From Enchytraeus crypticus (taxonomy: Eukaryota > Annelida > Clitellata > Enchytraeida > Enchytraeidae): a stretch of DNA of 64,000 bases. Position 1 is the stretch's first letter; each line of letters opens with the position of its first letter. Of the stretch, positions 13,301 to 59,335 are shown piece by piece. The DNA is taken from positions 505,501 to 569,500 of the forward strand of contig CAJHZI010000241.1 of the NCBI GenBank assembly GCA_905160935.1, given 5' to 3'. Made by a program: the position numbers and the translations under genes. The notes under the pieces are model-generated. The model did no database searches. It worked only from the letters and a program-made list of their open reading frames with translations, and was not told where the DNA came from.

Positions 13301-16300
13301 CCTAGACTCCAGAAATTGCTCCCAGATTTTCTAATCCAGACCCTGTAATTTATGTAATGCAAATATAATATCATAATGAAGCTTAAGATTTGTGGAAATA
13401 TTGCTGAGCAATGTCAAAGATAAATAATAAACTAATTATAAACAGAATAACGTGTAAATGAATCATTTATTTAAGGAACCAGTCTAGTTTTTGAAAAGTG
13501 CTGTATTTGTAGTGCACGATTCGATCCACAACTATTACTTTTCATTTCATCGTATGCGTTTAATTTGAAAAATTGGGAAGTTTTAATAAATAAAAAATAA
13601 TAAATACAAGGAAGATTTAGATGATAATTGCTCATGTTGTTGTCAGGAGAAGCATATAGTTTTGTGCTTGTGTTTGAGCCGTTCCTAGTTCATGTTGTTG
13701 TTGTGGTCTAGGGTAGTGCTACAGTGCTGCCTGATCTTATAGCTTTGTGTTAGTGTTTGAGCCATTCCTAGTTCAAGTTGTTGTTGTTGTTATTGTCTAG
13801 GGAGGTGCAACCATTGCACGAGGAGATCGCGTTGCACTCTCGATTGAGTCATCCTAACATCGTTAAATACTTGGGCTCTGTCAGTGAGAATGGCTTCTTC
13901 AAGATCTTCATGGAACAGGTTCCTGGAGGTTTGTAGCAATCAATCAACTACAATAAATCAGTTAATATCGATCAATCAGCTACAATCAATCAGTTAATAT
14001 CGATCAATCAGCTACAATCATTCAGTTAATCAGGTTCCTGGAGGTTTGTGTCGATCAATCAGCTACATTTAAGCAGTTAATCTGGTCCCTTGAAATGTGT
14101 ATCAATCAATCAGCTACAATCAATCAGTAAATCAGGTTCCTGGAGGTTTGTATCAATCAATCAGCTACAATCAATCAGTTAATAAGGTTCCTGGAGGTTT
14201 GTATCAATCAATCAGCTACAATCAATCAGTTAATATCAATCAATCAGCTACAATCAATCAGTTAATATCAATCAATCAGCTACAATCAATCAGTTAATCA
14301 TGTTCCTAGAGGTTTGTATCAATCAATCAGCTACAATCAATCAGTTAATCAGCAAGCACAAGTTGTGTCCCTGATCTTGTATGCAATCAGCGTATGAGGT
14401 ATTAGATGGACATTAGAGGGTTAGATACTTAGTAATTTGTTATAAACCCTACGTTAGGGCTGTCTACGTCTTTAAAAATTTAACATTTGAGATGGCTAAA
14501 TGTCTGTAAGGTGGTTTTATTTATCACCTTGTTAAAAATCAGACGACAGAGAACTACATTAAAAAACATACAGAAAATAAATTGTGGTGTGCTTTATTTT
14601 AATTCCAAATTGTGTGTTGTACTAAAGATAGAGTACATTGCATGAATGGTCTTAGTTAGTAGTGCACTTGCTTCACTAGAACGAGAGCACGGTTCATATA
14701 TTAGCCTATCCGTCTCTGACTGTCAATTTCATTTCGAAGCATACGCTTTATCGTGAATTTTAAAATTAAAGTTTTCATCGGAAAATAAAAATTTAGGTTT
14801 AAAGTTTTTAACGTGTATTAAAGTTTTCCTTTTATTTCATGTTTCTGCCAATGATATACCTGCAGAATACTTTGATTATATACAGGTAGCTTGTCAGAGC
14901 TGTTGAGATCTAAGTGGGGTCCCTTGCAAGACAACGAGATGACGATAGCTTTCTATACTAGTCAAATACTGCGTGGTCTCAAATACCTCGTAAGTATTCT
15001 CTACTAGTCAAATACAGCGTGGTCTCAAATACCTCGTAAGTATTCTATACTAGTCAAATACTGCGTGGTCTCAAATACCTCGTAAGGATTCTATACTAGT
15101 CAAATACTGCGTGGTCTCAAATATCTCGTAAGTATTCTATACTAGTCAAGTACTGCGTGGTCTCAATTGGTCTCAAGTATCTCGTAAATATTCTAAACTA
15201 GCCAAATACTGCGTGGTTTCAAATACCTCGTAAGTATTCCATAAAAATAAAATACTGCGTATCTCGTTAAGTATTATACACTAGTCAAACACTGCTATCA
15301 AACACACTATCTCAAGTGTAGCAGAGTAACAAGGGCCACTAGTTCGAATCTCTGCCGGTTAACGTACGAGTATATTGAAGGAGACGTTAAACTTATCTAT
15401 ATAACTTTGTGCTTTGGACACCATTTCGTTCATTAATCTTTCGTGCATTGCGATGAGAAAACGTTACGCATCTGTCAAATAGCTTATTTGTTTTTAATGG
15501 CGTTTGTTATGAATTGGGTTCATCACTGTTAGTGATAATGCTAATAATAATATAAATAGTGGTTTATAATTCTTTTTGAGAAACCAGTTGTCTGAAGTTT
15601 GTACTACTAATCTTTCATCCAGTTTGGTTACCAGTGGCAACCAGTTTGGCTGCTATTGATCATATTTGATCTGAAGCGTCTCATTCTGGTGAGAAAATTG
15701 GCGCTAATTAGTTAACTGGTTGTTCCTGTGTTCAACGCAACACGACATATTTATACTATATTATTATATTATATTTATAAGTACAGACTGCGTCCAAAGA
15801 ATTGACCAAAAATAAATTTGGTCAATTTGACGTAGCTTTGATAGCACCAGCAAAAAATTGGGGTCAATTTGTTTTGGTGCAGTGAGTATATTTGTATCGT
15901 CTCGAATGTGTGCAAAAAATTACAAATTTGTAAATTTATTTTCTCATTTTGGTGAGAAAACTGGCGCTAATTAGTTAACCGGTTGTTGACGTGTTGAACG
16001 CAGCACGACAACAAGATTGTGCACAGAGATATCAAAGGAGACAACGTCCTCGTCAACACGTACAGTGGAATACTCAAGATATCTGACTTCGGAACATCTA
16101 AACGACTTGCCGGCATCAATCCAAAAACCGATTCTTTCACAGGTTGGATGGCCTAGTTGATGGGCTAGTTGATTTTTTAAGAAGAACAAAAATACGGATT
16201 TGATCAGAAATTACGGACTCACCGGACCGTCTATGACAGTGCACAAGGGGAACGGATGCAAAAAGCTAAACTTAGCTGTTTGATTTATTTGTAGCAAGTA

Positions 16301-19300
16301 ACTTTCACTGCTGTATGAGACTTTAGTCTACAAGTATAATTGTATATTGAGTTGAGATGTTGAACACAATTTGTGTCGCGTGAACTCTAAAAGAGTACTG
16401 TCGAGTTTAACGTCAGTTTTCTGTTTTAAAAGCTTGTCATTGACTGAACGTACACACTGGATTTAAACCCTGCACTAACTGAATACTTATCCGCAGTTGA
16501 ACAACTTAGCGATATGCTACCGATCTATGCTAGTTGATCTCGAATAGCATAGATCAGAGTATATCTGGGGAGGGTATACGGCGTATACAAGTGGCCTGGG
16601 TTCAAAGCCCTGGTCGGTCAAGTAATGATGGATAACCCCTTGGGCCCATGGAAGGTTAATCTTGTATCGGAGAGTACTGCCGATTGGTGCTATCAATAGC
16701 AAAGATATGATTAACATGGAAAGGATTAATAATAACCTGCCAGAAACCTGTAAAGCGGTCTCGAAGACCGGACACCGACCATGACACCGTTATAGAAATT
16801 GTCGGTTATTATTATTGTTATTATTATTGTTATTATTATGATTATTATCTGGAGAGAGTGTCTAGATCTATTTACTGTCTAAGTGGGAATGATTACTAGA
16901 AATAAGTTAGGTACCATACATAGAGTGATTAGGCAGAAATAGTATGAACAAAGAAGGCTTCGACATCAGATTCGTAGGGTGGGTCTACTGTAAGACTGAA
17001 GACTGGCGCATGGTTATCAAACCCTTTTGGCGTTCTAAATGAATAAATGATGAATATATAATGGTTTCATAGCACTGCAATCGTTATTTTGGAATTTTAG
17101 CTGTGTATGATTTCACTGCTGACATACTTTAGTTGTCACTAGATAATGGAGCGGATTAATGATTGCTCTTTGCTGATTGATGTCCAGGTTCAGTACCATA
17201 TATGGCGCCAGAAGTTATTGACAAGGGAATCAGAGGCTACGGTTCCGCTGTAAGTAGGCCATTTTATAATAATATGTAAGTAGGTCATTTTGTAATAGTA
17301 TATAAGTGGGTCATTTTATAATAATAATAAATAAATTAGATACATTAGAGTAAATGATCAACTATGTTGATATCTATCGCTTTTGATGCCACATGTTTAT
17401 ATCGTTACGAAATGGAGTCCATTTTCCATGTAACCAGTCCTGTGAATGTCTGAGATTTTACTCTCTTATCGGAGCCTCCGGGAATCGAAACCACGAGGGT
17501 TCAATTCACCTCAGGATCTGTCATTTAAAACTTCATGACGTTACCTGACGCATCTAACCACTGCGCTATATAGACATCCTAATGCATTAAATATTGTGTA
17601 ACAGTAATACTATTTGTAATAGGTCATCTTGTGTCATGTATGGTTATTTTCTAACTTCTATAATTAAAGCAGCATTGGCATTGATTTTAGCATCTTAGAA
17701 GCTAGCCAAAATTCAAATTAGATTCAGGCCTAAAACTATAGGTCTACAATGCATTTGTAGATGACCCTGGATCTATCGCATTAACACGTAATATCTACAT
17801 GTAGCATAGGTTCTATCATGTGCATATTTTGAGTTTCTAGTAATCTCAGTATGTACATGTCATAGCGTTAAGTAACGTTATGGAATTCTAAATGGCTGAT
17901 TCTGAGCTTCTGGGATCAATTCGAGGTAGAGCTGATTGGTGAGTAAAATCACGGACATTCACAAGACTGGTAACAGGGATAATAGACTGAGCTGACTTAA
18001 TGGTTAAACATGTGATATTAAGATCATAGGTATTATCGCATATGATAATTTCTATATGCTGTAATGTTTAGCTTTAAACCTACTTTTCTTCGTGTTATTA
18101 TTGTTGTATTTTCATGCAATCGTATACCATACTTTTTTGTTTAAAATTGTTAGCTCCTCAGCTCCTGCCTTATTCGCCTCTTACTTACACTCAGCAGATT
18201 GTTTGCGGTTGCCCTATTCTGCAGTGGTCCAACCACACCCGAGCACAACACGGGGGAAAATGCAAAATTAATAAATTCAAATTAATTTTGTTTTAAATTT
18301 AATTAATTTAATCATCTTTGATTTTGTGGTTCTTCATTAATGACCTTTATTTATTGCAGGCAGACATTTGGTCGTTAGGCAGCACAATGATTGAGATGGC
18401 TACAGGAAAACCTCCATTCAACGAGGTATGTATTTCTCAGTCTGTACAGAGACGTCCCTGACATTGCCTTATGGCGAGGAACCGGACTTTAAATTTATAT
18501 TGTTTGACTGATTGACTACACTTTGATCTTGATTTGTTAGTTAATGTTTTTAATTAACATACTCTTAAGGTCGAAATTAAATTTTTCATCAAGTAGTTTT
18601 TTATTGAGATAAAATTAGCTATCCTCATCTTTACGATTCTCAAGTACTCATTCTACTTTTTTACTTAGTTGTTTAATTCTAAGCATTATGATCTATTCGA
18701 GATCTATTTGAAATCTATAACACTGTAAACCTCTCTTCCTCTAGTGTTCTGTCAAATGGCAGGTCCACAGTACATATTCCTACCTAGAGATTGCTTTCAC
18801 TTTCAATATGGAGCACTTCATAGATCTGCATCTTAATCCTTTCAAAAAGACTATGCCTTTATCAGCGTCTTATGTAGCCTATAGTTTGGAAAAGTATAGT
18901 TTCTGAGGTGATTTCCCGTTGCGTTTCTCAGTCGTTGCCTAGTCGCTTCTTACGTCACGTGCAGTTAGTGGTTTGTTTATTCCTCAATGTCCCGGGTACA
19001 GCGCTAGTAACTATAAGATCAATGGCAAATCATTAGACATACTGTGTATCACATTATAGGATCTGTCAGGTAATTATCTATGTGAGGATCTAACGTCATT
19101 CTCAGACGTCTGTTAATGCTTCAAATAACTGACAGTATTTAGTTAGTAGTGGTTACTGTCAGTCTGGTTAAGCTGGTAAAGCTAAGGTTAACATCAGTTT
19201 CCTCACTCGTAGAGATATCAGTGACGGGCGAGAACAGGATTTGAACCCGAACATACTGATCCGGGGTCAAATATCTTGCCACTGGCTCCAGCCCGTCTCG

Positions 19301-22300
19301 AGATCTATAGCGCGTCACGTGGTCGTTCTAAAGCTGTGCCTAGCGGCCTTGTCATCGGAACAATGATAATTTTGATAACAGCTCTGTCAATCTGTGACCA
19401 TTGCATCGTATAGTTAGGATTCAGTTCTGAATTCAATGTTCAGTATTTAGCGTAACTGCTGTCTGTATGATAGACTTAATCAATGTACCCTGATCACGAT
19501 CACCAGACTTGCTTTCGTTTAGGACCTTATTTCTCCTCAGCACATTTCTTTTGCAGATTGCTTGGTCTGGGTGAATTGATCTGTAGTGATGTGTGCTGTG
19601 GGGACGTCCCTGACATCATCCCTGGATGAGGAAACGGCCGTTAAACCTTTGTTATTATTATTATTATTTATTATTATTATTATTTCTTTTTTTACCCCGA
19701 TGTAAAGAACCTGGGGTTTGATAAAAACGATTCAAGCAATACGTGCGAAATCGCCGCACAATTTTATTATTATAATTATGATATTATTATTATTATTATT
19801 ATTATTGTTATATCTACAGTTAGGCTGCCCAGAGGCGACCATATTTCAGGTCGGCTTTCACAAGATACATCCAGATATTCCTCCTAGTATGTCTGACGTC
19901 ATCAAAGACTTTCTGCTAAGGTTTTTCAAGATTTTTTATTTCGGATTTCACACTTCATTATCTGTTAGTTGCGCCTTCTCTCTCCCTCTTTGTCTGATTG
20001 TCAATCTGTCTGTGTTTATCTGTTTAGCGATGTCGGTAAGATATATGATTGCGAACCAGTGTGTGCGAGGTTCAAATCGTGTGGTCGCCCGTCACTGATA
20101 TCGCTTTTGAGAGATTCTCTAAATATCCTGAAAGGTTTAGTAAGATTATCATTTATTGGCAAAGTCTCAAATAGATGATTGGCTGGTGGTGTGGGGTAGG
20201 ACATAGAGGATTTGAGACAGTCTATTTGTATCCCGACCCTGGTTAAACTGGGATTCAAGGGAGAATGATGATGATAATGATGATCATTTATTGGCTTTTT
20301 AAAATAAACGGTTTGCTTCCTTTTACTAGTTTATTATATTACACAGATTATCTGGATAACGGCAGTGGATTAATTCTATATTTTATATCATTTGGAGGTT
20401 TACTATGTTACATAGATTATCTAGATATCGGGCAGTGGACGCTCTTAGTAGAGCTGTCTCAGAAATTCGAAATTGATTGATCGATTAATATATCTATCTA
20501 TTCTGAACCAGACTTATATAATTAATTGGCTGTTTGATTGGATAGTCTATTTATTGATTGAGTAGTTCGTTGGATGATTGATTGACCGATTGATTACGGC
20601 TATTATTTCTACTAGTAGCAATGATATTGAAATTGATAACTATTGATTGATGATAATGTTAGAAAACTATGATTGATTGATGTTAAACTATGATTGATTG
20701 ATGTTAGATGTTTTGAGCCAGATCCCAGCGAGAGAGCAACTGCTGGACAACTGTTACTTCATCCCTTCCTGGCGGAGTAAGTATCTGTCGAAAAGATATT
20801 TTAATATTTTAAAGATTTTTAAAGATTTGAATCGTCGATTGGGTACTTATATAATGTAGACGACCATATTAGTAATACTTTTTATCTTGAGTGCCGGTTG
20901 ATTGTTGTGATCCTTGAATTATGCAGAAATTATTGCAAGTGTGACCTGTTTGAGTTATGTATTTATTAGTTTTCTCAAATGTCATGATTGTCAAAGACTG
21001 CAAATCGTAGTAAATCGTAGTATGTGTCAAATGGTAGACTGTCTTTGCTGCTTTTCTTGCCAGTCTTTAGCCCTGTTTTGTTTATCGTAATTGGTGACTT
21101 TAACGTAATTGGAACCCTGAACTTCTTATTAAAATTCATACTAAGGTAGCAATTATTATACACTAAGTGTAAGCGAAATGTTAAATCTATTTTTGTATTG
21201 AATGTTACTTGCAAAATAGGAGTTGGTCTTTCTGTATGTGCATTTTAATTTCATAGGCCATCTCAATATCTTTCTGTTTATGTCTGGCTGGCCTTCTATC
21301 TGTGCTTTGTGTCTGTCCTCTTAAATGTCTGTTTAAACGTTTGATATTTCTGTTTTTCGATCACTTTTAATTGCTTGTCTATTTCTCCATTTTGCTAACT
21401 TTGTGTCCATCTATTTATTTACTATTGTCTGTCTCTCTGTGTGTTTTGAAGCCTGCGTAGTAAACGATTTCTTAGCATGTTAATGTAGGCGTCTGTGTCT
21501 GTCTGGATGTCTTTTTGGTGGTCTGTTTAAGTATCTACCTGTCTTTCTGCATGCTAGTTAAGAATGAACGACTGTATGACTGCACACTGCACAGTTTGTG
21601 TAACTGTAAGTCGACACTTAAAGGGAAGTTATATTGGGATCTCAGGCCACTCTAGAGAGTATATTCTCATAGATCTAGCCTGTTATAGTTTTATTGCTAA
21701 CTTACTATAAATTGCACAATGCACATTAAATTTAAATTTAACTATTACACTATTACTGTTTATCAATTAACTGTTAGTATCTGTATTAATTAGTAAGGCC
21801 TAAATTGTAAATTTATTAAGTAGAATAGGGTATAGGCGTAGGGTTGATTGGATTTAGCCACTGCTGTGAATTACTGTGCTTGTGTAAATATTTTTTACCT
21901 GACATGATTTTTCTCAAGTTCAGTTGACTTCTTAGCGGCTAATTTAATGCCTTTAGCTAATTTCTATATTTCTGATTGACGTGTATCTTAGTTTGCATGC
22001 GAATGTACTTTTTGTTAAACGTGCAACTGTTTATTAGTCGCCTCTTGCGAAGCTTAATAGATAGTTTCAGTTTGTCTATACTTTTCGAAGTGAATGACAA
22101 CATGGAGCACGCCTAGTGGCTACAATTAAGAACTGGTTGGGATGAATAATATATACGTATAGCATTCTGTTGTAGTGTAAGATAGTGGTTAGTGGGCTGT
22201 TGTGTATAGATAACACCGGGCTATTAGTAAGAATGAGATACAGATGATTAATGGTTTGAGCCTGTTGCATATGCAGACCCGCACGGATGCTATAGTCAGA

Positions 22301-25300
22301 GTTGGAAAGTTTAGAAGAGATACATGTATTTGTGGTTAGTATTTGAACGTATTTTATACATAGAACACCGGGATATTCTAGTCAGAGACATCGATCTGAG
22401 TCAAGCACAACTGGAGATGGGTATGTTTCTTTGGTACCACCCTGCATACATGTGTGTGTACTAGTTTTGCATTAACCATTGACAAATCCTATCTCCTAAT
22501 TAGAAACTTGCTGCATGGTTAGTTTAAAATGGTTAGTTTAAAACAGAATCTCTGGTTTATTTTCAAGGCTGCTTAAAATAAAAGCGTATAAGCCTGCTTA
22601 AATATGTACGCTTTGTGTAAGTTTTTATGTTTGGTGTATTATTTGGCAATTGGTCAAATTTTAGTACATTTCCTATAATTGCTAGATGCCATGTTGTGTC
22701 CGGGTTGCTGAAGAATAGATCAATCGTAGGCTGCGCACGTATTAAAAGGCGGCAAAACTGACGTAGCTTAACTTCGTTCATTGACGCGCATCTTAACCAA
22801 CTGTTCTAAATCCCGACTCCATGTGGCATTCATACACGTAAATGTTGTGTATTGGACTTTTATAAACAACAATTATCATGTGAATTAGGCTAAGCAATTT
22901 TTGACAATGCAGAATAAGCGCAAAAAATAGTAGTTTAGTTAGCTGCTATGTTTTAGTATATCTCTTTCTTATGCTTTGTTGTCTTCTTTTAATAATAATA
23001 ATAATAATAATAGTAATTCATAATAGTAGTAATAGTTAGTAGTAAGTCCCATTCAGAAATGTGAGCTAATTAGCTCTCGCTCTGACAGTAACTTTCCTGT
23101 CATCAACTCATTCACTCATGTGAAACCTGTTGATGCCAGCCTTCTTGGTTGAAATCCGTGCCTTTATCTTCCTGTGGCCTCCGCCTGGATGACGAAGCAA
23201 TCAGAGTAGCAGTCGGTCTTCGTCTGGGCTCTGCTCTTTGTGAGCCACACAACTGTGTGTGCGGAGCATCGGTCAATGCTCTTGGAACTCACGGCCTTGC
23301 GTGCATACGGAGCGCTGGCAGAATCGGCAGACACCAGTATCTGAATGATCTGGTATGGCGTGCTCTAACTCGCGCAAATATTCCAGCCATAAAAGAGCCC
23401 CAGGGATTGAGCCGCTCGGATGGGAAACGACCGGACGGTGTATCTCAAATTCCTTGGGCAGAAGGCAAGTGTATCAGCTGGGATGTCACTGTAACGGACA
23501 CATTCTCAACAAGCAATCTCGGCCTTTCATGCGCTGCTGCTGGCTCAGCTGCTGAAGCCGCTGACAATAGGAAGTCCCTTAAATATGCCGCAGTCTCTAG
23601 CAGCTACATCTGCCTGCTAATTGCTTTTGAGACCTTGGGCCCCATCAACTCTGCCGCGTCTGACTTCATAAACGAACTAGGCAGGAGAACCAGTGCCATT
23701 ACAGGCGACCAGCGTGAAAAAGCCTTTCTATGGCAGCGCCTATCTATTGCACTCCAGCGTTTTAATGCTGTATGCGTTCTTGGCATATTGACGAATGCGG
23801 CCTCCCAGAGCGCAGAGGAACTATTTTAAATATTTTTCATCTTTCTTTTAATTAAATAAAGTCTTTTTTATCTTATATTTTAGCCCAGGGAAATAAAAAA
23901 CTAAAATAGTATTAATAATATCTAATAATAGTAGCCTAATAATAAGAATAATGATAATTCCTTGGTGCAACAGTAAATGTGCCGTATGCGACGTCACGGT
24001 CATTGACACTCTGGCAAACTCCTACCTGAATACGACTTCAGTCACAGTCCACAGCCGGTGGAGCTGCTGTTCATGCCGCCTCTAGGAAGTTGGATAAATA
24101 CCGTGATCTGTCCTTAGGATATGAGGTTATTCCGGTGGCCATGGAAACCACGGGCCCCATGAATCTAGATGGAGTTGACTTCATTAATGGCATAGGCAGG
24201 CTAATTGCAGAGCGAACCGTCGATAAGCGAGAGACATCTTTTCTTTGGCAAAGGCTTTCTATGACTCTGCAAAGATTTAATGCAGTCTGCTTCAGCAATT
24301 CTTTTAAGCCGATTGATGACCTCGAGTAGCCGGGCAGCGATTCAACACGTATTGCTCGAATATTTTTTATCAAACCTCGGGTTCTTTACACCCGGGGTAA
24401 TAAATTTTTAAAAAATAAATAAATAATAATAATGATAATCCAATCTCATCATGCGGCCTCCGTCTGGACGACGAAGCAGTCAGAGTCGCGGCCGGTCTTC
24501 GTCTGGGCACTGCCTCATGTGAGCCACACAACTGCATTTGTGGTGTCTCAGTCAATGCGTTAGGCATTCACGGCCTGTCGTGCAAGCGTAGTGCCGGCAG
24601 AATCAGCAGACATCAGTTCATAAACGACTTGATCTGGCGCGCCCTGAGTCGAGCGAATATCCCAGCCATTAAAGAGCCCCTGGGATTGATCCGCACTGAT
24701 GGTAAACGTCCAGACGGTGTCTCTCAAATTCCATGGGCAGAGGGGAAGTGTGTTAGCTGGGACGTCACTGTTACGGACACTTTCTCAGTAAGCAATCTCG
24801 GCCTTTCTTGCGCCGCTGCTGGTGCTGCAGCAGAGGCCGCGGCTAATAGGAAAACTCTGAAGTATGCCGAAATCTCTGGCAACCATATCTTCATGCCTAT
24901 TGCCTTTGAGACCCTGGGGCCCATCAACTCTCTCGCATCAGACTTTATTGACGAAATAGGCAGGAGGACCAGCGCCATTACTGGTGATAAGCGCGAAAAA
25001 TCTTTTCTTTGGCAGCGACTGTCTATTGCTCTCCAGCGATTCAATGCAGTCTGCTTCAGTGGCACTTTGGCTAAAGCAGCTTCCCAGAGTGCAGAGGAAT
25101 TATTTTAATCGCTTTTTTTAAACTTTTAATTAAATAAAGTCTCTTTTATCTTATTTTTTAGCCCAGGGCCCTTTACAGCCCAGGGCAATTTAAAAAATAA
25201 AAATAAAATAAATAAAAATAATGATAATAATAATAATAATAATAATAATATATATGTTTAACCTCCATTTCCTCATCAATGGATGATATCAAGGATAATA

Positions 25301-28300
25301 TAGTTAGTAGTAGTTACTTTGTAGAATATTTCAATTTTCAAAATACCATTAGTCTATTTCGATTCACGCACTTAAGAAGCGTAGACTAGTACAGCTACAG
25401 TGGCTTTCATTGGAGAGCTTCTACTTTAGAGTAAGATCACAGGTGTCAAAGTTAAAATCATAAGTGTCTTTACAACATTCAGCATACATGTAGCCAATAA
25501 ACGTGTGTCACATCGAGCTTTGTGCGGTTGGAAATGTATTATATAATTGCTTACTGTTAAATCTTTTTATAAGTTAATTTACTTGTATGTCATAATTAAC
25601 TGAATTGTATATGTTTAGTTTATCTGAAATAGATAATTTCCGTCAAGTTAAATAAGACTATAGAGAGATTATATGTCGATGTAGTAATTAAAGTATGTTG
25701 ATAATTTTTTGTTTTTACTGCATGTGCTAATAATTCATCTATACATTTAACCTCATATTTGGATATAGGTCTATTTCTTTAGTTAAGCTTCTTAACATGG
25801 CAGGTTTCTCGTAACTTATGCATATATTAACACCTCACCACATCTTGACGTAGTTGCTTGATTATTATGAATAGCTTTTGGTATTGCTTTTATTGTTATC
25901 TGTTTATTTAAAAGTTGGGCCTCTATTTCTAGTATTAATACATCTTATATTAATTTGTTAGACCATCCAATATGTTGCAGATTTCTGAATTGGGGTAGTT
26001 CAGCATAGTTAACGAATGTATCTCGAGTTCAAAGTGTATAAGCTACTTATTAATTAATTAATAATTAATTAAGTTAATTTAGTTTAATAACACACACTCT
26101 CTCTACCTCTATCTATCGAGTGTTTTGTGTCTGGCCCAAGGTTCATATTCATATTCAGCTATCAGTATAAAATAATTAACATGCTTCGAAATTGTATTTT
26201 TAGGTATTAATTATATTTTATTTAGACGACTAAAAATGGTATTGCATTGCCTGTTAAACTGGAGGCCAAGAGTGTCCTATTTAAAATTGACTCTGTTACT
26301 AGGAAGCTATAATACTGTTAGATTGTTTATCATTTCTTGACCAACTGTTATGCTGCCATTGATTGTATTACAATGTCAATGTTATGACTGTAACTATCGT
26401 CTGTAGTGAAAATGTATGAATATAAAACTGTATTGAAAATTTTAACGTCTGTTTCCGTATCACAAGGGATATCGACAGAAACCTTCAGGCTAGGATTTGA
26501 ACCAGTGGCCTCGTGTTTATAACCAAATAGCGCAGTTATCTCGTCTATCCTACCGATATGGATTGTTTTGAATTGAATGCAAAACTGTAAAGATAAAATA
26601 ACTGGTGAATTAGTCCATCAGCTTTTTTAAGTCTACTCTGTGTTTAATTAAATCATCATCATCATCATCATCTTGCCTTGAATTCCAGTTTAACCAGGGT
26701 CGGAATGAGAAAATTTCGTACCAATTTCTGGAGCCTAGGCTCTCACCAGCCGAATGCCCTTTCTGACGGTGGTTTTGAGAAGAAGATAAAGATGATGATG
26801 GTGGTAGTGGTGGTGGTGGTGATGACGAGTTTTGTTGTTGTACTCCTATAAAGGTGATGATGATGGTGATGGTGATGATATTGTTGTTGTTCTTGTAGTA
26901 CTCCTATGAAGAAGAAGATGAAGATGATGATTGTGGTGGTGATGATATTGTTGTTGTTGTTGTTGCGGTACTCCTAGGAAAAAGAATAAGATAATGATGA
27001 TGGTGGTGGTGATAATGGTGATGATATTGTTGTTGTTGTTGCAGTACTCCTATGAAGAAGAGGAAGCAGAATCAGCCCTCGCTCAATATCTCACTGGCTG
27101 GTTCGTCACGTCCTGAGACTAATCGCAGTGTGTCAGGTAAATCAGAACCCTTATGTTTAAATAACTCTGTCAGGTAAATCAGGACCCCTATAATATAGAC
27201 CTTTCGTAAAACTTGTTTCCTTTAAAAAATCACTTTACTTTGAAAAAATCACCTTGTATATTTTCTTATTCGTAGGAGGACGCAATAAACGACGAAATAT
27301 CTAATAAATATATGGTTATGTACTAAACATTGCCTGCTGTCAATGTAAACAAAATCCCCTCCCTACTACCCCACCACTGCTCCACTTGGCTTTGTTTATA
27401 ATCTGTGCCAAGCTCCCACTACATATTGTGAAAGGTCTCTCTCTCTCCTCTCTCTCTCTCTTAGTGCACTGCCTACTGGCAGATCCATGGTATATAACGC
27501 CTCCACTCTTCTCTGTCTTCCGCCTTCCTGTTCATTTCTACATATGAGTGGGTCTTTAAATCATCTAACATACCTAATCTCGGCCTGCCCCTGTCTCTTT
27601 TTCCTTCCATTCTACCTTCTATGACCACTTTTAATAGACTTTCTCCCCTTAGAATGTGTCCTATCCATCTCTTCTTCCTATTTCTTAATACATTTATCAA
27701 CTGTCTATCTGTGCCACCTCTCTCCAGAACTTCCTCATTTGTAACCTTTTGAGTCCAGCTAATCCTCTCCATTCTTCTCCAAATCCACATTTCCAATGCC
27801 TCCAGTTTCCTAATATCTTCCTTCCTTAAGGTCCATGTTTCACATCCATACAATAGCGTGGTCCAGACCAAAGTTTTCACTACCTTTATCTTTGTGCCTT
27901 TCTTTAGACTTTTTGTTAATAGTTCTTTTCTACTACCAAAGGCCGCCTTTGCTTGTGCAATCCTACTGCATATTTCCGTCTCACATTTCGCATCATCGGT
28001 TATAGTATGACCCAAATATTTGAAACTCCTTACCTTTTCTAATTTCGTACCATTCATTGTGATATTAACTTCACCTTTATTATTGGACACTCTCATAACC
28101 TTGGTCTTTTTTATATTAATCTTCATGCCATATCTTAAAGCCGTATCATTCAGCCTATCCATTATCTTCTGCAATCCAATCTCGCTGCCTGCTACCATTC
28201 CTTGGTCATCTGCAAAACGTACATCTTGTAACAAATTCCCTCCTACTTTTATTCCTTCTTCCAAGTGTTCCATGGCTTCCTCCCTCATTGCCTCAGCGTA

Positions 28301-29658
28301 AATGTTAAACAGCAGCGGCGAAATGCTACAACCTTGTCTTACTCCAAGTCCTACGAAAGGTCTACAGGTATGTAACTGTGTTGTTTTGTGTTGTATCTAT
28401 TCGCTGGTTGTCCGGATAATGGTGTTTTGTGTTGTATCTATTCGCTAGTTGTACGGATAGTGGTGTTTTGTGTTGTATCTATTCGCTAGTTGTACGGATA
28501 GTGGTGTTTTGTGTTGCATCTATTCGCTGGTTGTACGGATAGTGGTGTTTTGTGTTGTATATATTCACTAGTTGTCCGGATAATGGTGTTTTGTGTTGTA
28601 TCTATTCGCTAGTTATACGAATAATGGTGTTTTTGTTATTAATTATTATTTACAACGAAAACTTAGCAGTGTCATGGCCGAACTCGGTCTTCGAGACTAC
28701 TTTACAGAAAGAATTCAATAATAATAGTCAGCTAAATAATAATTACATTTAAATTACTATCTAAACTAGTAAAAATTGTCTACGTTACGTTGTTATCCTT
28801 GTGTTGTTTTAGCTCCTGTAGCTACCGGTGTAATGATGCGCCCATCTCTTCATCATCACTACAGCGGTGTGAGCTGTGAGGTACCTGACACCCCCACTAG
28901 TGCTAACCCTCAGGAGCCTGCCACCCCCTCCTCCCAACAATCCTCCCTACTGGACAAGTCAGTACTTTTAAGCTATGACTGTTTGCTGAATATATATGGG
29001 TGTATTAGTACTTTGTAGTGATTACTTTCAGATGGAATCACGTTATAATACTTAAATAAATAGCACGCATGATAAACTATGCCAAAAAACGGGTAAAGCT
29101 AAGGTTAACGTCAGTTTTCTCTCTCGAAAGTAATGTCAGTGACGGGCGAGCCCAGGATTTGAACCCCGCATATACTGATCCGCGGTGGAATAACTACCGA
29201 CATCGCCACTTTCTCCAGCCGAATGTCTAACACATTGAATACTAGATGTTAAAACACTAGGATTTTTTATCCTATTTTGTATATGTATACCAGTCCTGTG
29301 AATATCAGAGTTTTTCCTCTCAAATCAGCGTGGCCGAGAATCGAACACACGAGAATTCAGTTATCTCAGGAACTGTCATTAAAATTTCATGACGCTACCT
29401 GACGTCTCTAACCACTAGGCATATTAAGTGCATAATATGCATTAGGCATATTATGCACTTATTTTTTTCTGCATATTTATGTGCACATTGCTTCTATTCT
29501 TTGAGTTGATTTGCTTTGTTCATTTTTAGTTTGCATATTCATTTTTTAGTTCGTACTTTTATGCATGCATGATGGGTTCACAACTAGATAGGTTTTTTAA
29601 ACCTCTTTGACGGCCTAGTTTGTGTGCATATTTGAGTGTATTTTTGAAATAAAACATA

Positions 29659-29714
<56 letters not shown>

Positions 29715-34976: not shown

Positions 34977-35042
<66 letters not shown>

Positions 35043-41000: not shown

Positions 41001-44000
41001 AGTTTTCGTGTTAAGTCTGATACTTCATGTTCTGTTGAGTGGAAGTCATATGTTTTGTTATGTTTACTTTTATGTTAGATTTCTTTTGCAGCTCTGTTCG
41101 TAGAAATTTCATCTAAAGTTTGTTGCTTTCTCAAAGCTATAGATGTTGTGATATTTAAGTTTTTACTTTGTGCCACGAACTAAATTCAAATATTAAAAGT
41201 GCCAATTATAACTTGTGAGTATAATTTCTAGTGCAGCGTTGGCTTCTACACTGCAATATACACTTTGCACTTTTACACTGCACTTTACACTTTGCACTTT
41301 TACACTGCACTTTACACTTTTCACTTTGCACTTTTACAGTGTACATTATACTTATATCATTGTTCGTATCTCTAGGAGTACGTTTGGTACGCACGGTACG
41401 TTACCCGGCATCTCGCTGAGTTCATTAGGGTCAAACCTTTCACCGGAAGTATTCGCTCTGCCCTCTGCCGGCAGCGCTCTAGTCTGCGCGGCCCCTACAC
41501 AGCCTTCAACATCTCCTGCTCATACACGTACGCTTAGCTTACTTCTAAAAAATTTAAAAAAGTAAACACGCATTATAGTGAATAATCAACTATGTTGATA
41601 TCTATCACTTTTTAATACCACATGTTTAAACCGTTAGGCAATTTAGACCATTTTCCGTATAACCAGTCCAGTGAATGTCCGAGATTTTATTCTCGGATCA
41701 GCGCGGCCGGGATTCGAATCCACGAGGGTTCAATTCACCTCAGGATATGTCATTTAGAACTTCATGACGATACTCCTACGTTATTAAGACATTCCATTTT
41801 TGAACATTCCATTTTAGACCTTTCATTGTATAAAAGTAAAGCCGATGTTAACGTCATTTTCATTTGTTGAAAGTGATAATAGTGACGGGCGAATCCATGA
41901 TTTTAACGCCTCACTTACTGATCCTGTTTTTATTATATTTCCAATATTAGCTTCTATGGTGTAGTGGTAACGGAGTGGCTTCTGAAATCATAGGTCACTA
42001 GTTTAATACGAACTAGTTACTAGTTTAATACTCTACCGTTCCCTCCCTGACTTTGGCATATGGCGAGAAACCGGACGTTAAATTCTTATTGATTGATTGA
42101 TTGACTGATTGATTGATTGATTGATTAACGTAATCGTCAGCGAACTGCTATATATTTTTCCGAGGTATAGCCCGCATGTTGTTGTTGGTTTTATTATAAG
42201 ATCGAGTAGCAGTTCTAAAACGAATGCAAAAGAAGGTCTATTCATATCCCAACCCCTGTTAAAATGGGATTCAAGGGAAGATTATAATGATGATGATAAG
42301 TAGTAGATCCTCTTGTTTTCAAATGGACGTTCTTAATTCTATTACTTCAACAGGCTGAATTTTATATTAAAAATGCTTCAGTCAAGCTATAAATCGGTGA
42401 TTGCCTTTCTTTCTTGATTGACTGAATTATTACTTATTATTATTATTTATGATTGATTTAATTAATTAATTATTGTTAATTTTAGCATCGAGAGAAGAAT
42501 TAGAGCTGCGTGATTGGCTGAAATCTCTTTGTGTTCACGAGGACACTGTTAACAGAGTCAGTACAATGATTTGATATTTAATTCATCTCTTGAAAAACTG
42601 CAAAATTTAAAGCTTAACGTCCGTTTCCATGTCTCCTGGACCTAACTATTGTCTCTAGGCCTATTAGGCAAATGTTCTGTGGACTCGTCCGTCCAACCGA
42701 TATTAAAATGTGGCACGTTGACGTCTGTTGGTGCAGAGTCTACATAAGCTTATGTTCTTATGTGATACAAATAATAATAACAACAATAGAGTGCTACAGT
42801 CATCAATAACAACATCGAGCACCATTGAGACAAAATCAATCCGACGAGCAAAAAGAAGGTCCAAAAACGGTGAAAAATCATGATATCATAACATCGTAAC
42901 TTAAAAAAGAGTTTCATGATGAACCTGACAGTAGTTAACTCTGTTGTTAAGCTGACAGTCAACCGTTGTGTTAGTTTGTTATCAATCTACATCTGTTATT
43001 TGAATAACTGCTGAGAGATCGAGTCATTACTCGCCTGTAGCACAAATGAATGTGACGACACACAATGTTTGCTGCTGTCAAGGCTTTTGTGCTTGTTTAA
43101 AATCATTAATGGTTGGTATAAGTCTGCCTAAGGAAGTACCGTGGAAGCTGTTGTATGCATTGATGTATATTCAGCTGTTCAATGTAAATACGCATTGAAG
43201 TGAAATGATCAACTATGTTGCTATCTATCACTTTTAACACAACATGTTTAAACCGTTAGGCAATTTAGACCATTTTCCGTATAACCAGTCCAATGAATGT
43301 CCGAGATTTTACTCTCAGATTGGCGGGACTGGGATTAGAACCCACGAGGGTTCAATGCACCTCAGGACCTGTCATTTAAAACATCATGACGTTACCCCTA
43401 CACTATTGAGACATTCTATAATGGATATTTAATGGATTTGTTTGTGTGCAGATAATTGCTGAACATTACACTGTGTATCACCTGCTCAACGTCTCAACCA
43501 GAGATGACCTAGTTAGACTTCAAATTAGGTCAGTATTGTACTGTAAAAGGATGGTGAGTTACTTATTTGTTAATAAATAAATAACTACTGTTATGCTTGT
43601 TATTAGTGCCAAAAATTCGTGCCAATTCGAAACGCGAAGGTTCTGCTTAGACTGACTCTAAGCAATGGGTAGGTCCTTCTTGGGGGTAGTTTGGGAGCTA
43701 ATAGATATGGTATAGTTAATATAAAATAACTCAGACACCGATAACAATATAAGAAACTTGTTACAACAACAATCACACATATACAATAAATCTATCTACT
43801 TAAGGTTTCGTGTACCCGTTACAGCAAGTCACAAATACAAATTATGTTACAGAAGCTTGAGTATTACCGTCTTCTTATATAGTTCCTAATTTAATAAAAC
43901 ATTGTTACTAAGTTACTTTACGTTTAAGTAAGAGTCTTTAGACGTTAAATGCCAAGTGTGTCTGTCTCGAGTGACAGTTCCGTGTCAACTGTTCCGTCAG

Positions 44001-50005: not shown

Positions 50006-50009
50006 GTGA

Positions 50010-51907: not shown

Positions 51908-51909
51908 CT

Positions 51910-53050: not shown

Positions 53051-53053
53051 GAC

Positions 53054-53059: not shown

Positions 53060-53234
53060 ACCGCACAACACCAGAGGCCAACTAACCTGTACAAAAAGTA
53101 TATAATCCTAAACAAAAGAAGCATCGTTTAATATTGAATACAGGAATACAGAAATCAGAACAAGAGTGAAGGAATAGCAGCAATAGTAAAAAATATATAA
53201 ACTAATTTGGTAATAGTAATTACTGTATCAGTCA

Positions 53235-53850
53235 GTTCAGTGCAAGAGATCCAATCTAGCTGCTGGTTGGCTTCATCTGCTGGTTAGCTGCAGCTGCTGG
53301 TTAGCTGCAGCTGCTGGCTAGCTGCAGCTGCTGGCTAGCTGCAGCTGCTGGCTAGCTGCTTGCAATAGCAACCACTAGTAACAGCTAAAAGTTATCAATT
53401 AATTACTAATCAGTGCTTCAATTCAGCAACCAGTTTTCTTATACCTAGCTAATTTTTAACTAGCTGAATACTACTCTTACAGGGCTACTTAATTCAGGAG
53501 ACTGAGGCCTCAGCAGCTAGGTACACAGCAGCAGAGCAGCTGGGTAGTTCTCAGTAGCTAGATACACAGCAGCTGATAGCAGAGCAGCTGGGTAGTTCTC
53601 AGGGGCAGCTAAATACAGCAGCTAGATACACAGCAGCTGATAGCAGAGCAGCTGGGTAGTTCTCAGGGGCAGCTAGATACAGCAGCTAGATACACAGCAG
53701 CTGATAGCAGAGCAGCTGGGCAGTTCTCAACAGCTAGATCAGCTAGATCAGCTAGATACACAGCAGCTGAACAGCTGGTTAGTTCTCAGCAGCTAGATAC
53801 ACAGCAGCTGTTAGAAGAGCAGCTGGTTAGTTTTCAGCAGCTGGTGGTGG
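53235..53850 (-). repeat. Tandem repeats copied from the end of MYCBP exon 5
   Basis: On the plus strand, GAGCAGCTGGTTAGTTTTCAGCAGCTGG at the stop codon is echoed by units GAGCAGCTGGGTAGTTCTCAG with AGCTAGATACACAGCAGCTGATAGCA between (53533-53815), and a 17-bp AGCTGCTGGCTAGCTGC array at 53270-53350. Confidence 0.88.
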
Positions 53851-53907
53851 CTGCTGTTCAGCTGCACTAGACGCTGAAGCAGCTGCTTGCTGCTCATATT
53901 CTGCTAA
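53827..53907 (-). CDS. MYCBP: MYCBP exon 5 and stop
   Basis: LAEYEQQAAASASSAAEQQP PPAAEN then TAA; acceptor TGTTTTAG. The Ala/Gln/Pro tail is an extension relative to vertebrates. Confidence 0.9.
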   Translation of the reverse strand, partial: LAEYEQQAAASASSAAEQQPPPAAEN

Positions 53908-56900
53908 CTAAAACATAAAATTACAACACATTTTAAAAATAAAATTAATCTACTTTAATTATACTCTTGAAGATAATTTATTTATGTTGCACTTTTGCAC
54001 ACCATTTTGCATGAATTGTCTTGTAGTGATAAGCTATGCAGTGATGTACCTGGATTTATTCTTTGAAAGAGGAAACGAATAGTAAACCTTTACTATTGTT
54101 ATTACCATTCTTATTATTATTATCACTTTTACAATGAGTAAAGACTGCTTAATGATTTCAATCACAAGAGGAAATAGCAAATTATAAAACATTTAAATCG
54201 AAAAGATATAACCTAAGCGTTTGCATCACGCTTTACAAAACTTACCAGAATGTACAATGAAACGTAACTGAGTCTACTAAACCTAGACAAAGAACTTCTT
54301 ATACAAATTTCAAACATCACAGAGGTGAACAGTAGCCCCTCTAGATGCGCTAATTGAAGACTATACATTATGGATCTGCATACTGTAATCTACCATGACA
54401 ACCAAAACGCACTGTTAAGAACTACTACTACTTTTAAATAGTATCTATCTGATATTATCTGGTAGTAGTCTATCTGATATGAGAGGTTGCTAGTCGGTGA
54501 ACGGATACTGCAATTGATTCAAAGTAGTTCTCGCTCAAGTCACTGAGTGAGGCAATTTCCTGCTAAACGAACAGGGCCAAGTTGGCTAAGCCGACAGCAA
54601 CTAGATTAGTTGTCGAAGGCGGATCAGTAACCAATTCAAATCCACTGCTCGCCTGTCACTAATATGCTTTCAAAGACAAGAAGTTAAAGTTAAACTCGGC
54701 TTTACCCAATTAACAATAATTCTGCACTTAGCATTTCATCAAATACAACGGAATATTACTCCAGGAAGGCACATAAAGCTGGTAAAGCTAAGGTTAACGT
54801 CACTCGAAAGCGATGCCAGTGACGGACGAGCCCAGGATTTGAACCCCGCACATATTGATCCACGGTCGACTATCTTACCGACTTCGCCACTGGCTCCAGC
54901 CAGACATAGACTCGTTATAAGCATGGGGATAGTTGAAAAAATTAGAATCAAAACAGCGGTACTATCACTTACTTTCAGCTTGAGTTCAGAGTTCTCCTCG
55001 GTCGCTCGCTCCAGCCTCTCCCTCAGGTCACTGACCTCCAGCCTCAGGGCCTCCACGTCAGCAGCCTCAGGGGCCTCCACCCCCAGGTGCGTCTTCAGAA
55101 AACTATCAGAGCTCAGATAAAGAAAGTATTGGACGATAGGAACAGATAGGGAAACTATTTGAGGATAAGATCAGATAGGAAAACGATTAGAGCCTCTAAT
55201 AGTTTTCTTGTCTGATCTTATCCTTTAATTTAGAAGATAAGATCAGACAGATATTCTATTAGAGGATAAGATCAGAAGGAAATCTATTAGAGTTAGGATC
55301 AGATAGGAAATCTATTAGAGGATAAGATCAGATAGGAAATCTATTGGAGGATAAGATCAGATAGGAAATCTATTAGAGCACAAGAACACATAGGAAAACT
55401 ATCTGAGGATTATAAGATCAGATTACTAGAGAACACGACTGACACAATACACACATGCGTATTTCATTGTTTCTCCTCCCATAATTAACATATTTCGTCA
55501 CTGAGCTATTCATAAAAGCCAGATTCATAAATATTTTTAAAATCAGACAGGATAAAATCACATTACAGGTACTTTAATAAATTTAAATAGATAACTAATA
55601 CTGAACCGAGAAACAGAAAATACAATTATATCAGTAACAAAACAGTAAAAATACCTTCGAATGTGCCAGATCGGGCCATTAGCAACAATTACAAATGCTT
55701 CAAATGATTAAAATTATTGGATCAAATCCAAAGTATATAAACTAATACATAAAAAGACTAGAGCAGAGAGCAGTCAGAAGAACAATATTAGTTCAACAGT
55801 CAATAATGCAATAGACTATCAACATTAAAGCTTCAAAAAGGACTTGAGATTATATATAACTTTACTTCACCATACAATATGGTAGCATAGCTACAATAAG
55901 TACACAATATAAAGTACATTACACAAAGTGACATCATGTTCGGTGAAACAGGGCAAAGAGATAGTGTTCATAACAATGAAACATCACACATATGTACTCG
56001 AAAAGTGTGCAATAAACAAATTAATTTAATTAAATTAGAGAAAATTACAATCTTTTCCTTTTATTAAACACTGTCATACTCATTGCAGAGCAGTTGTAAG
56101 AAAGATGCTACTAGACTGTGCTATAGATAATACAGTGACAATAATCTAAAGATGAGTCTGATATTGCAAATCTGCAAAAATCTGCGCTGAAGAATTTTCA
56201 TTCTAAATCAGCCTCGTAGTACTAAATGTTACCTATAAATGTTTCATATTTGCTTCCTAGTCCAGTTATCTGATAATAATATTAAATAGCTAAGTTGCTA
56301 TTTCCTAATATTTGCTTGCAAATAATTGTGCAGTGCTCAGTTATGTTTAAGTCTGACATGCTTGTAATATTTATTTTTATATTTCCTCTTGGTTTTGTAT
56401 GTTCATTTTTTGCTATCTGTATGAATGTTTCTAGCTGCCATTTGTAGTCTCCTTGTAAATAAAATGAAATAAAGCATATTTCCCTCTCTCTCTCTTTAAC
56501 ATCACAACTAGGGCATGAAAATCTTGAAAATATGTGATGATGAGAAATTTACATGTTTTGTCAAATCACTTATTTCAGTGAAATAAACTTAGATTATTGA
56601 GAATATGTGAAGCTACATAGTGATGTGTTTTAGCAGATCTTGAAGGATACTCGATGGCGTTGTTAGGCTTCTCCGGTTCTTCATACAAACCAACCAACAC
56701 TGAAACACGTTTAACACATCTACAATTCATTACTAACGTCTCTAGTGTTCTGAAGAATAACAGTTCTATAGAATATATCCCTGCTTAATATTTCTTTAGA
56801 TGCTTTTAAATAAAAACTCATCAACAAGTAAATTGTTCCTATGAAATAAGTAAATAAATATCTAATATGAAATGTATAAATAACTGGCTTGAGCCAGTGG

Positions 56901-59335
56901 CGATATCGGTAAGATACTCAACTGCAGATCAGTATGTGCGGGGTTCAAATCTTGGGCTTGCCCGTCACTGACATCGCTTTCAAGTGAGGAAACTGACGTT
57001 AACCTTAGCTTTACCAGCTTTTAGGGCTCTGAAGAATGACAGTTCCATATATCCCTGCTCAATATTTCCTTACATGCTTGACATAACTGCAAAAGATAGC
57101 ACTTAACCATTAAACTGATATCATTTTACAGCATTTGACTATTTAACTTGGTATAACTGATATGGATATTCATGTCCATTACAGAAATCATTTCATTCTT
57201 TTTTTTACCTTCAGCCATTTCATTTGTTTATCATATATTTTTCTTAAAACGTCAGAAAGACAATTAATGGCTAGTATGCTTTGATATTCGAGTAAGAAGC
57301 TGGATTGAACTTTAAATTCTTATGGCCTGAATATTGCAGCTATCAAGGTTTTCTTATGCAGCACCCACAATCTGTAACAAATGGATTGAACTTTAAATTC
57401 TTATGGCCTGAATATTGCAAGCTATCAAGGTTACTACCTTTCGTAAGAACATCCATGACGCCAGCTTTCTCCAGGTACTTCCTGAACTCTTCACGCTTGG
57501 AATCGGCAGCCTAAAACATTAATAAGTTATATAAATAATGGCGCAAACAGACCTCTCACTGCAATACCTTTCAGTGCACTCAGTACCTAGTGAAAGGTTG
57601 TTAGAACCCCGGTCAATCGATTTCTCCAATCTCAGTGATCTATTGTAAATTAGTAGGAAATTAATTTAATTATAAATTAATTCAAAACTGACAGAGGTAC
57701 TTAAACTTCTACCCCAGTCTTAATATTATATTCAATCATATTCAGTAATTAGCTAGTCCAAGGTTGGCTGCATAATTCTACCCATAGTATGCTTCGAAGT
57801 TGCTGAAAATAGCATCTTATAGAAGAGCAAGTTGATCCAAACAATAAACACTATGCTTAATCAAGTCCTTTTCTTCTACTTAAAGGAACAGTTTGGTTTC
57901 CAAGCTGGCTTCTTTTACCTTCCTCAATTCTTGCTTAGTCCCCTCTAACAACACAAATGAAGTTGAAGGTTTGTCTATTCTTAAGTAGCCTTAAGTGGCA
58001 AAATATGGCCACCAGCTTAATCTTAAGACTAAAATAATATAATATGTACGCAACTGTAAACTGCACGAGTCATAATCTTGAGGCAGTTAAGTAATAACTG
58101 AAGAAAATAAAGGGATGCTACCTAGGAAGCCATCTTATTGTCTTGATAATAATGTAGCCTTTATTAATATAGCCACTTTAATGTAGCCTATAGATAGCTT
58201 GAAAGCTATCTATAAGCTACATTAAAGTGCTGATAGGGTCTAGACTTAGGTGAAGGGATATTGTTATTATTGACTTGCTATTAAATGAAGTCCTTTTCAA
58301 AGGCCTGACTGTGAGAAGGAATACGCACCATAGACCAGCAAAATTCACAGAAAGCTAGTGACAGAGAAGAGAGTTAATGAAATTAACTATATACTAAACA
58401 ATATTCACACAGGTTCATCTTCAATATTTATATCTGTTAGCGTTAAAGTTAGAAATATAGTAAGATTAGCTGTACTCGCGCCTCAATGTCACTGGCTTGT
58501 TTATATCACCAAAATGTTACTACTGATGATATAACACCAGTCTTTCTATTTTCTTAAATAGTTTAGTGTGAAGAACTATTGATTTCTATAAATATTAATG
58601 AAAAAATATATAAAGCTAAAGCTAAAGCTAATGTTAGCATCAGTTTCCTCACTCAAAAGCGATGTCAGTGATGGACGAGCTCAGAATTTGAACCAAGCAC
58701 ACACTGATCCGTGGTCGATTATCTTAACCAACATCGAGCCAGTGGCAATATCAGCCGATGTAGCTAAATCCAATTATTATATAAATCGTATTCCTTAAAG
58801 AAATGAATGGGAAACCAAATAATGGTCTATGGTCTACACATGTCAAAATTTTCTAATCTTATACCACAAAGCAAATCAAAGCAATTTTGTGCAATTGTCG
58901 TCAATGAGTACACCACTAAAGCTATAGCCAACAAGCAAAAATTTAATCTCAGAAACTAATAAAAAGTTGCAATTTTAAGATTTATATGATGAGATTTGTG
59001 CTAATATCGACGCTACAGAAATTAGACCGTAAAAACCACGGGGCTCATGCGATAACGCCCCTCTCTATGATTCCGTCCTATTATTTTCGATACAATTTCA
59101 ATTTCTTTCTACGATTACTACGATATTATTTCGATTCCTAAATTTCGATATAACTAGGGGCGTTTTCATATGAGCCCCAAAGCCACTACGTACAGCTGAT
59201 CTCTCCAAAAAGCCACCAATTCGGCTACAAACAACACACAGAAGTTGACGTTAAAGTGGTCAAAACCCTTCTAGCTTCACAGTTGCATGAAGAAAATTTA
59301 TTTTCAATATTTAAACAAATTACCTTATAAGACAT
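53827..59335 (-). CDS. MYCBP: MYCBP (AMY-1) orthologue, five exons, complete
   Basis: Encodes a small helical protein known in vertebrates to bind the MYC N-terminus and AKAP-type scaffolds and linked to cilia and flagella. Coding exons on the minus strand: 59335-59324, 57510-57438, 56699-56651, 55102-54973, 53907-53827; all borders are AG/GT and phases agree, 345 nt, 114 codons plus stop. Residues 5-27 read AADSKREEFRKYLEKAGVMD then VLT, followed by VLVGLYEEPEKPNNAIDFLK and THLG, then a coiled coil (about 60-88) and LAEYEQQ. This matches vertebrate MYCBP (about 103 residues) along its length, with a longer Ala/Gln/Pro tail. It looks functional. Confidence 0.93.
54586..54710 (+). mobile_element. 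SINE family A, diverged
   Basis: CTAAGCCGACAGCAACTAG, AATTCAAATCC, CCTGTCACTAATATGC and AACTCGGCTTTACCC. Confidence 0.6.
54776..54903 (-). mobile_element. SINE family A
   Basis: AGCTGGTAAAGCTAAGGTTA to CACTGGCTCCAGCC, 70 bases from the exon 4 donor of MYCBP. Confidence 0.85.
54973..55102 (-). CDS. MYCBP: MYCBP exon 4 (coiled coil)
   Basis: FLKTHLGVEAPEAADVEALR LEVSDLRERLERATEENSEL. Acceptor CTGATAG|TTTTCTG, chosen because it restores the conserved DFLK..LG join; donor GTAAGT. GC-rich compared with its surroundings. Confidence 0.92.
55103..55430 (-). repeat. Repeats echoing MYCBP exon 4 acceptor
   Basis: On the minus strand, units such as CTGATCTTATCCTCTAATAG ATTTCC recur every 29-40 bp upstream of the real CTCTGATAG|TTTTCTG acceptor; one at about 55197 reads CTCTAATAGTTTTC on the plus strand, making an inverted pair. 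Confidence 0.75.
55431..56640. other. MYCBP intron 3, no further gene seen
   Basis: AT-rich. A segment at 56380-56490 ending AAATAAAATGAAATAAAGCATA and then (TC)n looks like the 3' end of another retroelement. Confidence 0.5.
56651..56699 (-). CDS. MYCBP: MYCBP exon 3
   Basis: VLVGLYEEPEKPNNAI plus split Asp codon; acceptor GTTTCAG, donor GA|GTATCC. Confidence 0.93.
56884..57022 (+). mobile_element. SINE family A, full-length
   Basis: GGCTTGAGCCAGTGGCGATA to CTTTACCAGCTTTT with B box GGTTCAAATCT. Confidence 0.88.
57303..57437 (-). repeat. Two-copy tandem duplication at MYCBP exon 2 donor
   Basis: TTGAACTTTAAATTCTTATGG CCTGAATATTGCA(A)GCTATCAAGGTT occurs at 57305-57353 and 57385-57432; the second abuts the donor. 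Confidence 0.9.
57438..57510 (-). CDS. MYCBP: MYCBP exon 2
   Basis: AADSKREEFRKYLEKAGVMD VLTK; acceptor TGTTTTAG, donor GTAGTA, ends phase 1. Confidence 0.93.
58174..58229. repeat. 27-bp inverted repeat, 2-base spacer
   Basis: CACTTTAATGTAGCCTATAG ATAGCTT pairs with 58203-58229 with a single mismatch; in MYCBP intron 1. Confidence 0.9.
58600..58760 (-). mobile_element. SINE family A
   Basis: AAAGCTAATGTTAGCATCAG to CATCGAGCCAGTGGC. Confidence 0.78.
59324..59335 (-). CDS. MYCBP: MYCBP exon 1 (start codon)
   Basis: ATGTCTTATAAG (MSYK) then GTAATT. Chosen because it matches the MxxYK start of MYCBP and phase 0 of exon 2. Confidence 0.8.

Follow-up and report, generated by a model that had tools for sequence, protein, structure and literature searches.

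Local tandem repeats across exon-intron junctions in Enchytraeus crypticus, with a partly supported preference for intron 3' ends

Tandem repeats spanning exon-intron boundaries have been described in amphioxus as 'mirage' minisatellites, in Adh3 and in the globin genes BflGb6 and BflGb9 (PMC3087553, PMC3902484), with PGBD5 and troponin C cited as further mirage genes (PMC3902484). According to the passages of these papers that deal with them, the units measure from tens of bp to about 160 bp (10-72 and 150-160 bp), many contain AG/GT, both boundaries are affected, and splicing is suggested to be undisturbed (PMC3087553, PMC3902484). The word 'mirage' also occurs in a paper on Caenorhabditis genome size (PMC10015627). 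Finally, intron gain by the tandem duplication of AG/GT-bearing segments is described for potato RdRp (PMC4974935).

The repeats considered here were recognized in a 64,000-nucleotide stretch of the annelid Enchytraeus crypticus (the window; contig C159, 505501-569500; the genome assembly has 802 contigs totalling 524 Mb). They resemble the amphioxus mirages in three respects: the repeat spans the exon-intron boundary, both in a MAP3K gene of the window and in CCT chaperonin genes; many units carry splice signals (AG in 53/61 and GT in 28/29 copies); and the spacings of most arrays, 26-115 bp, lie within the published range, outside which fall only a few copies that are 263-264 bp or farther apart. 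Unlike the published passages on mirages, which concern single genes and do not speak of polarity, we find many junctions affected per gene and, in the CCT genes, acceptors far in excess of donors. In the potato case, as in ours, splice signals are copied by tandem duplication on a local scale, but there an intron gain is described, whereas the copies here sit within existing introns. A further likeness is found in human CFTR, whose TG and T tract is a simple repeat at an acceptor. Here, too, a simple repeat lies directly upstream of acceptors, but it is a branch-site-like tetranucleotide, strand-specific and present at 22 of 101 acceptors. Junction-spanning repeats are already known from amphioxus, while their 3' polarity and the acceptor-anchored (TTGA)n seem to be new; among the titles and abstract openings listed by searches of a largely open-access literature, none dealt with either subject.

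Genes of the window and repeats at their exon edges

The joined frame of the MAP3K model is open, with phases and GT/AG consistent through exon 24. When exon 3 and those after it are translated together, the protein has Pfam matches to Pkinase and a HisK-N-like ASK domain, and its kinase part matches MAP3K5 structures in the PDB (E 1.9e-113); the gene is of ASK1 type. The minus-strand gene downstream is presumably MYCBP, a name given by similarity. Its intron 3 begins with GTATCCTT (56643-56650, minus strand), which we take to be the consensus of U12-type introns, and has a 29-bp array on its acceptor side. A second ASK-type gene lies on contig C729, where 5,000 of 60,000 bases are N; exons 1, 10-12, 14, 15, 18, 21 and 22 of this gene are without a junction, and exons 13 and 19 contribute only their 3' ends. 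The ASK-type kinase is present as tandem gene copies in one genome (window and C729); for the window itself, the one assembly yielded no second allele. All modelled genes and repeat-bearing edges are listed in Table 1.

Table 1. Modelled genes and repeat-bearing exon edges (window positions unless a contig is named)
Feature	Position	Strand	Description
ASK1-type MAP3K	10241..45198	+	24 exons modelled; exons further upstream lie outside the window
Exon 3 3' end and donor	13916..14349	+	6 units, 51 or 115 bp apart
Exon 4 3' end and donor	14951..15295	+	46-bp units; GT kept in 5/5 copies
Exon 5 acceptor side	15679..16010	+	copies 15679-15747 and 15942-16010; one copy 263 bp upstream
Exon 6 donor	17249..17326	+	3 units of 26 bp; unit begins at donor, with about 1 exon base
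Exon 9 acceptor	20664..20707	+	2 units of 21 bp; unit ends at acceptor AG, sole copy has AA
Exon 10 acceptor and exon start	26848..27061	+	units of about 70 bp
Exon 10 donor	27129..27189	+	second copy 37 bp downstream
Exon 12 5' side	29814..30452	+	41-bp array reaching the acceptor; 0/13 listed upstream units have AG at the corresponding position
Exon 13 acceptor side	31660..32066	+	copies 31660-31802 and 31933-32066; spacing 264 bp
Exon 13 3' end and donor	32154..32839	+	13 units spaced 52-60 bp, largest array; GT kept in 12/12 copies
Exon 16 acceptor	35512..35856	+	repeat unit of about 52 bp; the real junction is at 35836
Exon 17 3' end and donor	36546..37049	+	copies 36546-36593, 36658-36710 and 37004-37049
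Exon 23 3' end and donor	43505..44346	+	copies 43505-43536, 44186-44215 and 44315-44346; 681 and 810 bp away
Presumed MYCBP	53827..59335	-	5 exons modelled
MYCBP exon 5 end with stop codon	53552..53844	-	TRF array 53552-53810; stop-codon copies by eye
MYCBP exon 4	55114..55410	-	29-bp array, its start 12 bp from the acceptor on the upstream side; partial match only
MYCBP exon 2	57301..57450	-	intron start in two copies; exon portion matched only partly
Second ASK-type gene	C729:203000-262999 (L003-L008)	-	exon positions match the window gene where both are modelled

A preliminary description of the window had placed exon borders of both genes in tandem repeats whose units include the exon edge. 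Reading and repeat scans bear this out at MAP3K exons 3, 4, 5, 10, 13, 16, 17 and 23, where the edge is copied together with its splice site; exons 6, 9 and 12 are weaker cases, and at the 3' side of exon 12 clear similarity begins only about 10 bp within the intron. MYCBP is likewise a weaker case, in that the stop-codon copies of exon 5 can be recognized and exons 2 and 4 offer partial matches only. Between the direct copies of the exon 17 donor region, a further copy in inverted orientation can be seen by eye at 36740-36850.

The same description had read a graded decay into the copies, and this was not confirmed: in the arrays that could be tested, at exons 13, 4 and 3, identity followed no significant order along the array (Spearman P 0.49, 0.23 and 0.28). 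Compared with their consensus, the 12 intronic copies of the exon 13 array are changed at 2/192 places of the exon-derived part and 29/424 of the intron-derived part, a pattern that could be due to conversion by the exon or to a spread in recent times. The exon 3 array shows the opposite trend (5/55 exon-derived against 13/200 intron-derived places).

Several other features of the window were noted. Positions 1-5222 are AT-rich (an island with a GC of about 0.28-0.30) and carry a series of plus-strand frames, which we take to resemble a Polinton or adintovirus-type element; an intronless frame of 333 aa lies beside it (6602-7603), and a 35-bp satellite of about 38 copies occupies 8204-9544. 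Minus-strand frames at 23149-23829, 24629-25108 and 27473-28288, the first two being mutual copies, lie inside MAP3K introns and are presumably retroelement fragments. Viral contigs contained no relative of exon 1 and no match to a SINE-like pattern.

Junctions against chance in the two kinase genes

For the spanning test, the window was compared with itself by blastn, counting copies within 1500 bp and masking simple repeats of period 6 or less, which hides some cases (5' of exon 10 in the window, 5' of exon 2 in the C729 gene). Local repeats span 9 of the 55 junctions in the window, against a rotation-null mean of 9.1 (P 0.58); with copies restricted to 700 bp the null is 7.3, again without an excess (P 0.32). 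An ungapped score gives the same 9/55 at thresholds 12-18, set against 0.13-0.15 of 904 intron points, and among 27 window introns 4 acceptors and 5 donors are spanned with 4.06 expected, so that acceptors show no excess. The spanned fraction is 0.048 in exon interiors and 0.176 in introns. Repeats deeper in introns had been called few, which is not confirmed: where window introns lie over 200 bp away from any exon, repeats span 11.6% of positions as well.

The second ASK-type gene behaves similarly. With the ungapped score, 4/27 junctions are reached at 14-18 and 5 at 12, against 0.15-0.17 of 821 control points. Its repeats lie 5' of exons 3, 5, 20 and 23 and 3' of exon 13, and the two genes have repeats in common only 5' of exon 5 (spacings 263 and 80 bp) and 3' of exon 13 (52 and 83 bp). 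Because so few sites are shared and the spacings differ, the arrays evidently turn over. In the 37 introns of both genes together, TRF arrays touch (within 5 bp) 8/74 intron ends, where 12.2 are expected. Their density is, however, higher close to exons, up to a distance of 300 bp (0.205 vs 0.155, P 0.0075); for 36 introns up to 2500 bp and a distance of 200 bp or less, the values are 0.202 and 0.163 (P 0.08).

A junction preference drawn from the window alone was therefore rejected, as neither of the two scoring methods nor the TRF placement test (window and C729) supports it. The original observation is real but over-read for the window, and is to this extent partly confirmed. The window counts, those of the C729 gene and the placement of TRF arrays all agree with a duplication process that is blind to position, in which local duplications arise everywhere and some hit junctions by chance. 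As an account of the whole material, we regard such a process as possible but unlikely, owing to the chaperonin genes.

Intron 3' ends in the chaperonin genes

The PF00118 profile has 57 matches in the genome, which lead to nine chaperonin genes (CCT loci L009-L025). Introns were first placed by HMM continuity and splice sites, with 4/25 models dropped for a deviation of more than 3 residues; one of the resulting 21 introns belongs to an HSP60-like gene that was excluded from later analyses. For the remaining 20, in eight CCT genes, segments of solved CCT structures served as references to refine the models. A further 44 introns of the same CCT genes come from exons found in gaps, and their junctions are placed with less certainty than in the first 20; in the combined set of 64, seven exon gaps yielded no intron. 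One pair of PF00118 matches, C259:219813-222410 and C400:245545-248142, has equal scores and spacing and an 894-aa open frame, and perhaps represents two haplotypes or a recent copy.

In the first chaperonin set, 10/42 junctions had a score of at least 16, and by blastn 9/21 acceptors but 0/21 donors were spanned. This split was noticed on these 21 introns and had not been predicted in advance. After refinement, the 20 CCT introns have nine spanned acceptors and no spanned donor against 2.7 expected (P 0.0002), or six and none against 1.2 when repeats are required to be at least 90% identical. With single edges added, the counts are 13/47 acceptors and 1/42 donors, compared with 117/1125 far points, 55/394 decoy AG sites and 19/163 decoy GT sites. 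The 44 later introns contribute seven acceptors and one donor with 5.4 expected: the donor deficit recurs (P 0.012), the acceptor excess alone is not significant in this set (P 0.27), and the comparison of acceptors with donors gives P 0.058. For all 64 introns of the eight genes, 16 acceptors (P 0.0005) and one donor (P 0.001) are spanned, where 8.1 are expected at random intron points, and across all 101 introns (window, C729 and CCT) the totals are 23 acceptors and seven donors (Fisher P 0.0025). The 16-to-1 division, and acceptors exceeding far points and decoy AG sites, speak against duplication blind to position.

The excess is not confined to the splice site. Towards the acceptor, repeat coverage reaches 0.25-0.28 in the final 150 bp of the intron, against 0.20-0.21 out to 300 bp and 0.11 beyond, and the acceptor itself is no higher than the last 100 bp (0.27 vs 0.28); on the donor side coverage is 0.02-0.10, and 0.02-0.08 over the first 150 bp. 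In the CCT genes it is thus the whole 3' end of the intron, not the acceptor point, that is repeat-rich, and the repeats continue into the exon. A repeat preference for intron 3' ends, as opposed to junctions in general, is partly supported, for the sampled CCT genes and by an acceptor excess noticed after the fact.

These results divide the explanations first offered for the window. Splice junctions as preferred sites of duplication find no support in the window or at CCT donors (1/64), but the idea holds for CCT acceptors (16/64). The idea that introns grow outward from their ends fits the CCT 3' end only, where growth would account for the coverage, and not the 5' end. Finally, plain slippage that is visible only beside a conserved copy is weakened: an intron has conserved exon on either side, so that a donor/acceptor split is not to be expected from visibility alone, and repeats at least 90% identical are biased alike in the 64 introns (10 acceptors, one donor, 3.2 expected).

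A second feature of intron 3' ends is a tetranucleotide repeat. Counting at least 3 perfect units in the 50 bp ending 3 bp before the acceptor, (TTGA)n is present at 22/101 acceptors (2/27, 3/10, 5/20 and 12/44 by gene set), in 0/101 windows just inside donors and in 16/1174 deep windows (P 5e-16). Its counterpart on the opposite strand, TCAA, is found at 0/101 acceptors, 1/101 donors and in 9/1174 deep windows; for any simple repeat the counts are 31/101, 10/101 and 66/1174. Since the preference is confined to one strand, it argues for a signal and against a mutation hot spot that is blind to strand. The sequence TTGAT fits the branch-site consensus yUnAy, and positions 5-35 bp upstream of 88 acceptors are rich in T (0.44) and poor in C (0.10). 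Genome-wide, (TTGA)4T N5 YAG has 638 + 769 matches. We do not take this count as evidence because, in 243,508 bases examined, YAG exceeds YAC not only after TTGA (92 vs 30) but also after TCAA (75 vs 31).

Explanations and their meaning for intron evolution

We propose, at about even confidence, that these are mirage-type local duplications, that intron 3' ends are slippage-prone, and that upstream copies are tolerated as decoys. Segments straddling a junction, mostly spaced about 25-265 bp, would be duplicated, and their copies duplicated again, local duplication being apparently common in this genome. Copies may be tolerated because the one adjoining the exon body retains the whole splice signal, the others presumably being ignored by splicing; exons joined at the copy next to the exon body do give open frames. 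In the sampled CCT genes, junction repeats gather at intron 3' ends, in our view most likely because such ends, T-rich, C-poor and often made of simple repeats, (TTGA)n, (TTG)n and (TGTAT)n among them, are prone to slip. TTGAT could serve as a branch site, together with a U-rich tract, at any length of the array, and slipping simple-repeat tracts may supply the homology that seeds larger duplications across the AG into the exon. The mechanism itself we infer; a comparison of the simple-repeat index between spanned acceptors (0.485, n=13) and others (0.548, n=33) gave it no support (P 0.72), in a test biased by the masking of simple repeats.

A more far-reaching version, which we put forward only tentatively, is that in this lineage tandem repetition both creates and renews intron 3' ends: (TTGA)n would be an elastic branch site and uridine tract, the acceptor would be re-duplicated together with exon starts, introns would lengthen from their 3' ends, and upstream copies would be silent decoy acceptors. 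Both the CCT 3' bias and the strand-specific (TTGA)n at acceptors are observed and, together with the mirages published for amphioxus, speak for our preferred explanation, against which stand the window gene, with 4/27 acceptors and 5/27 donors, the lack of a significant acceptor excess in the later 44 introns, the repeat index, and the acceptor being no richer than the intron end beside it.

Alternatively, duplication could be even, with selection purging donor copies more than acceptor copies because an extra downstream donor would be used more readily than an extra upstream acceptor. This would explain why CCT donors fall below the random-point expectation, but window donors are not depleted (5/27, 4.06 expected), and GT is intact in 28/29 donor copies of both ASK genes (0.72 expected from flank identity, in a count where copies of one array are not independent and matches close to the boundary are favoured), so we consider it improbable. 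That extra acceptor copies are themselves useful, as added branch sites or alternative acceptors, and selected for is more improbable still: AG is intact in 53/61 acceptor copies where flank identity predicts 0.73, and among 29 copies found by exon bases alone A (0.90) and G (0.93) are more often identical than the 15 intronic neighbours (about 0.78), but array copies are not independent, the search favours matches near the junction, AG is intact in only 4/8 acceptor copies of the window, and GT is retained in donor copies too.

Exon-edge copies within introns, which in the sampled genes lie mostly at the downstream end, offer a handle on intron growth and on how splicing deals with duplicate signals. 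With about one fifth of sampled acceptors following a branch-site-like microsatellite, the minimal 3' splice-site signal would become directly testable by lariat sequencing. If acceptors are indeed hot spots of local duplication, natural series of arrays could serve to study intron length, intron gain and how the spliceosome chooses among near-identical acceptors.
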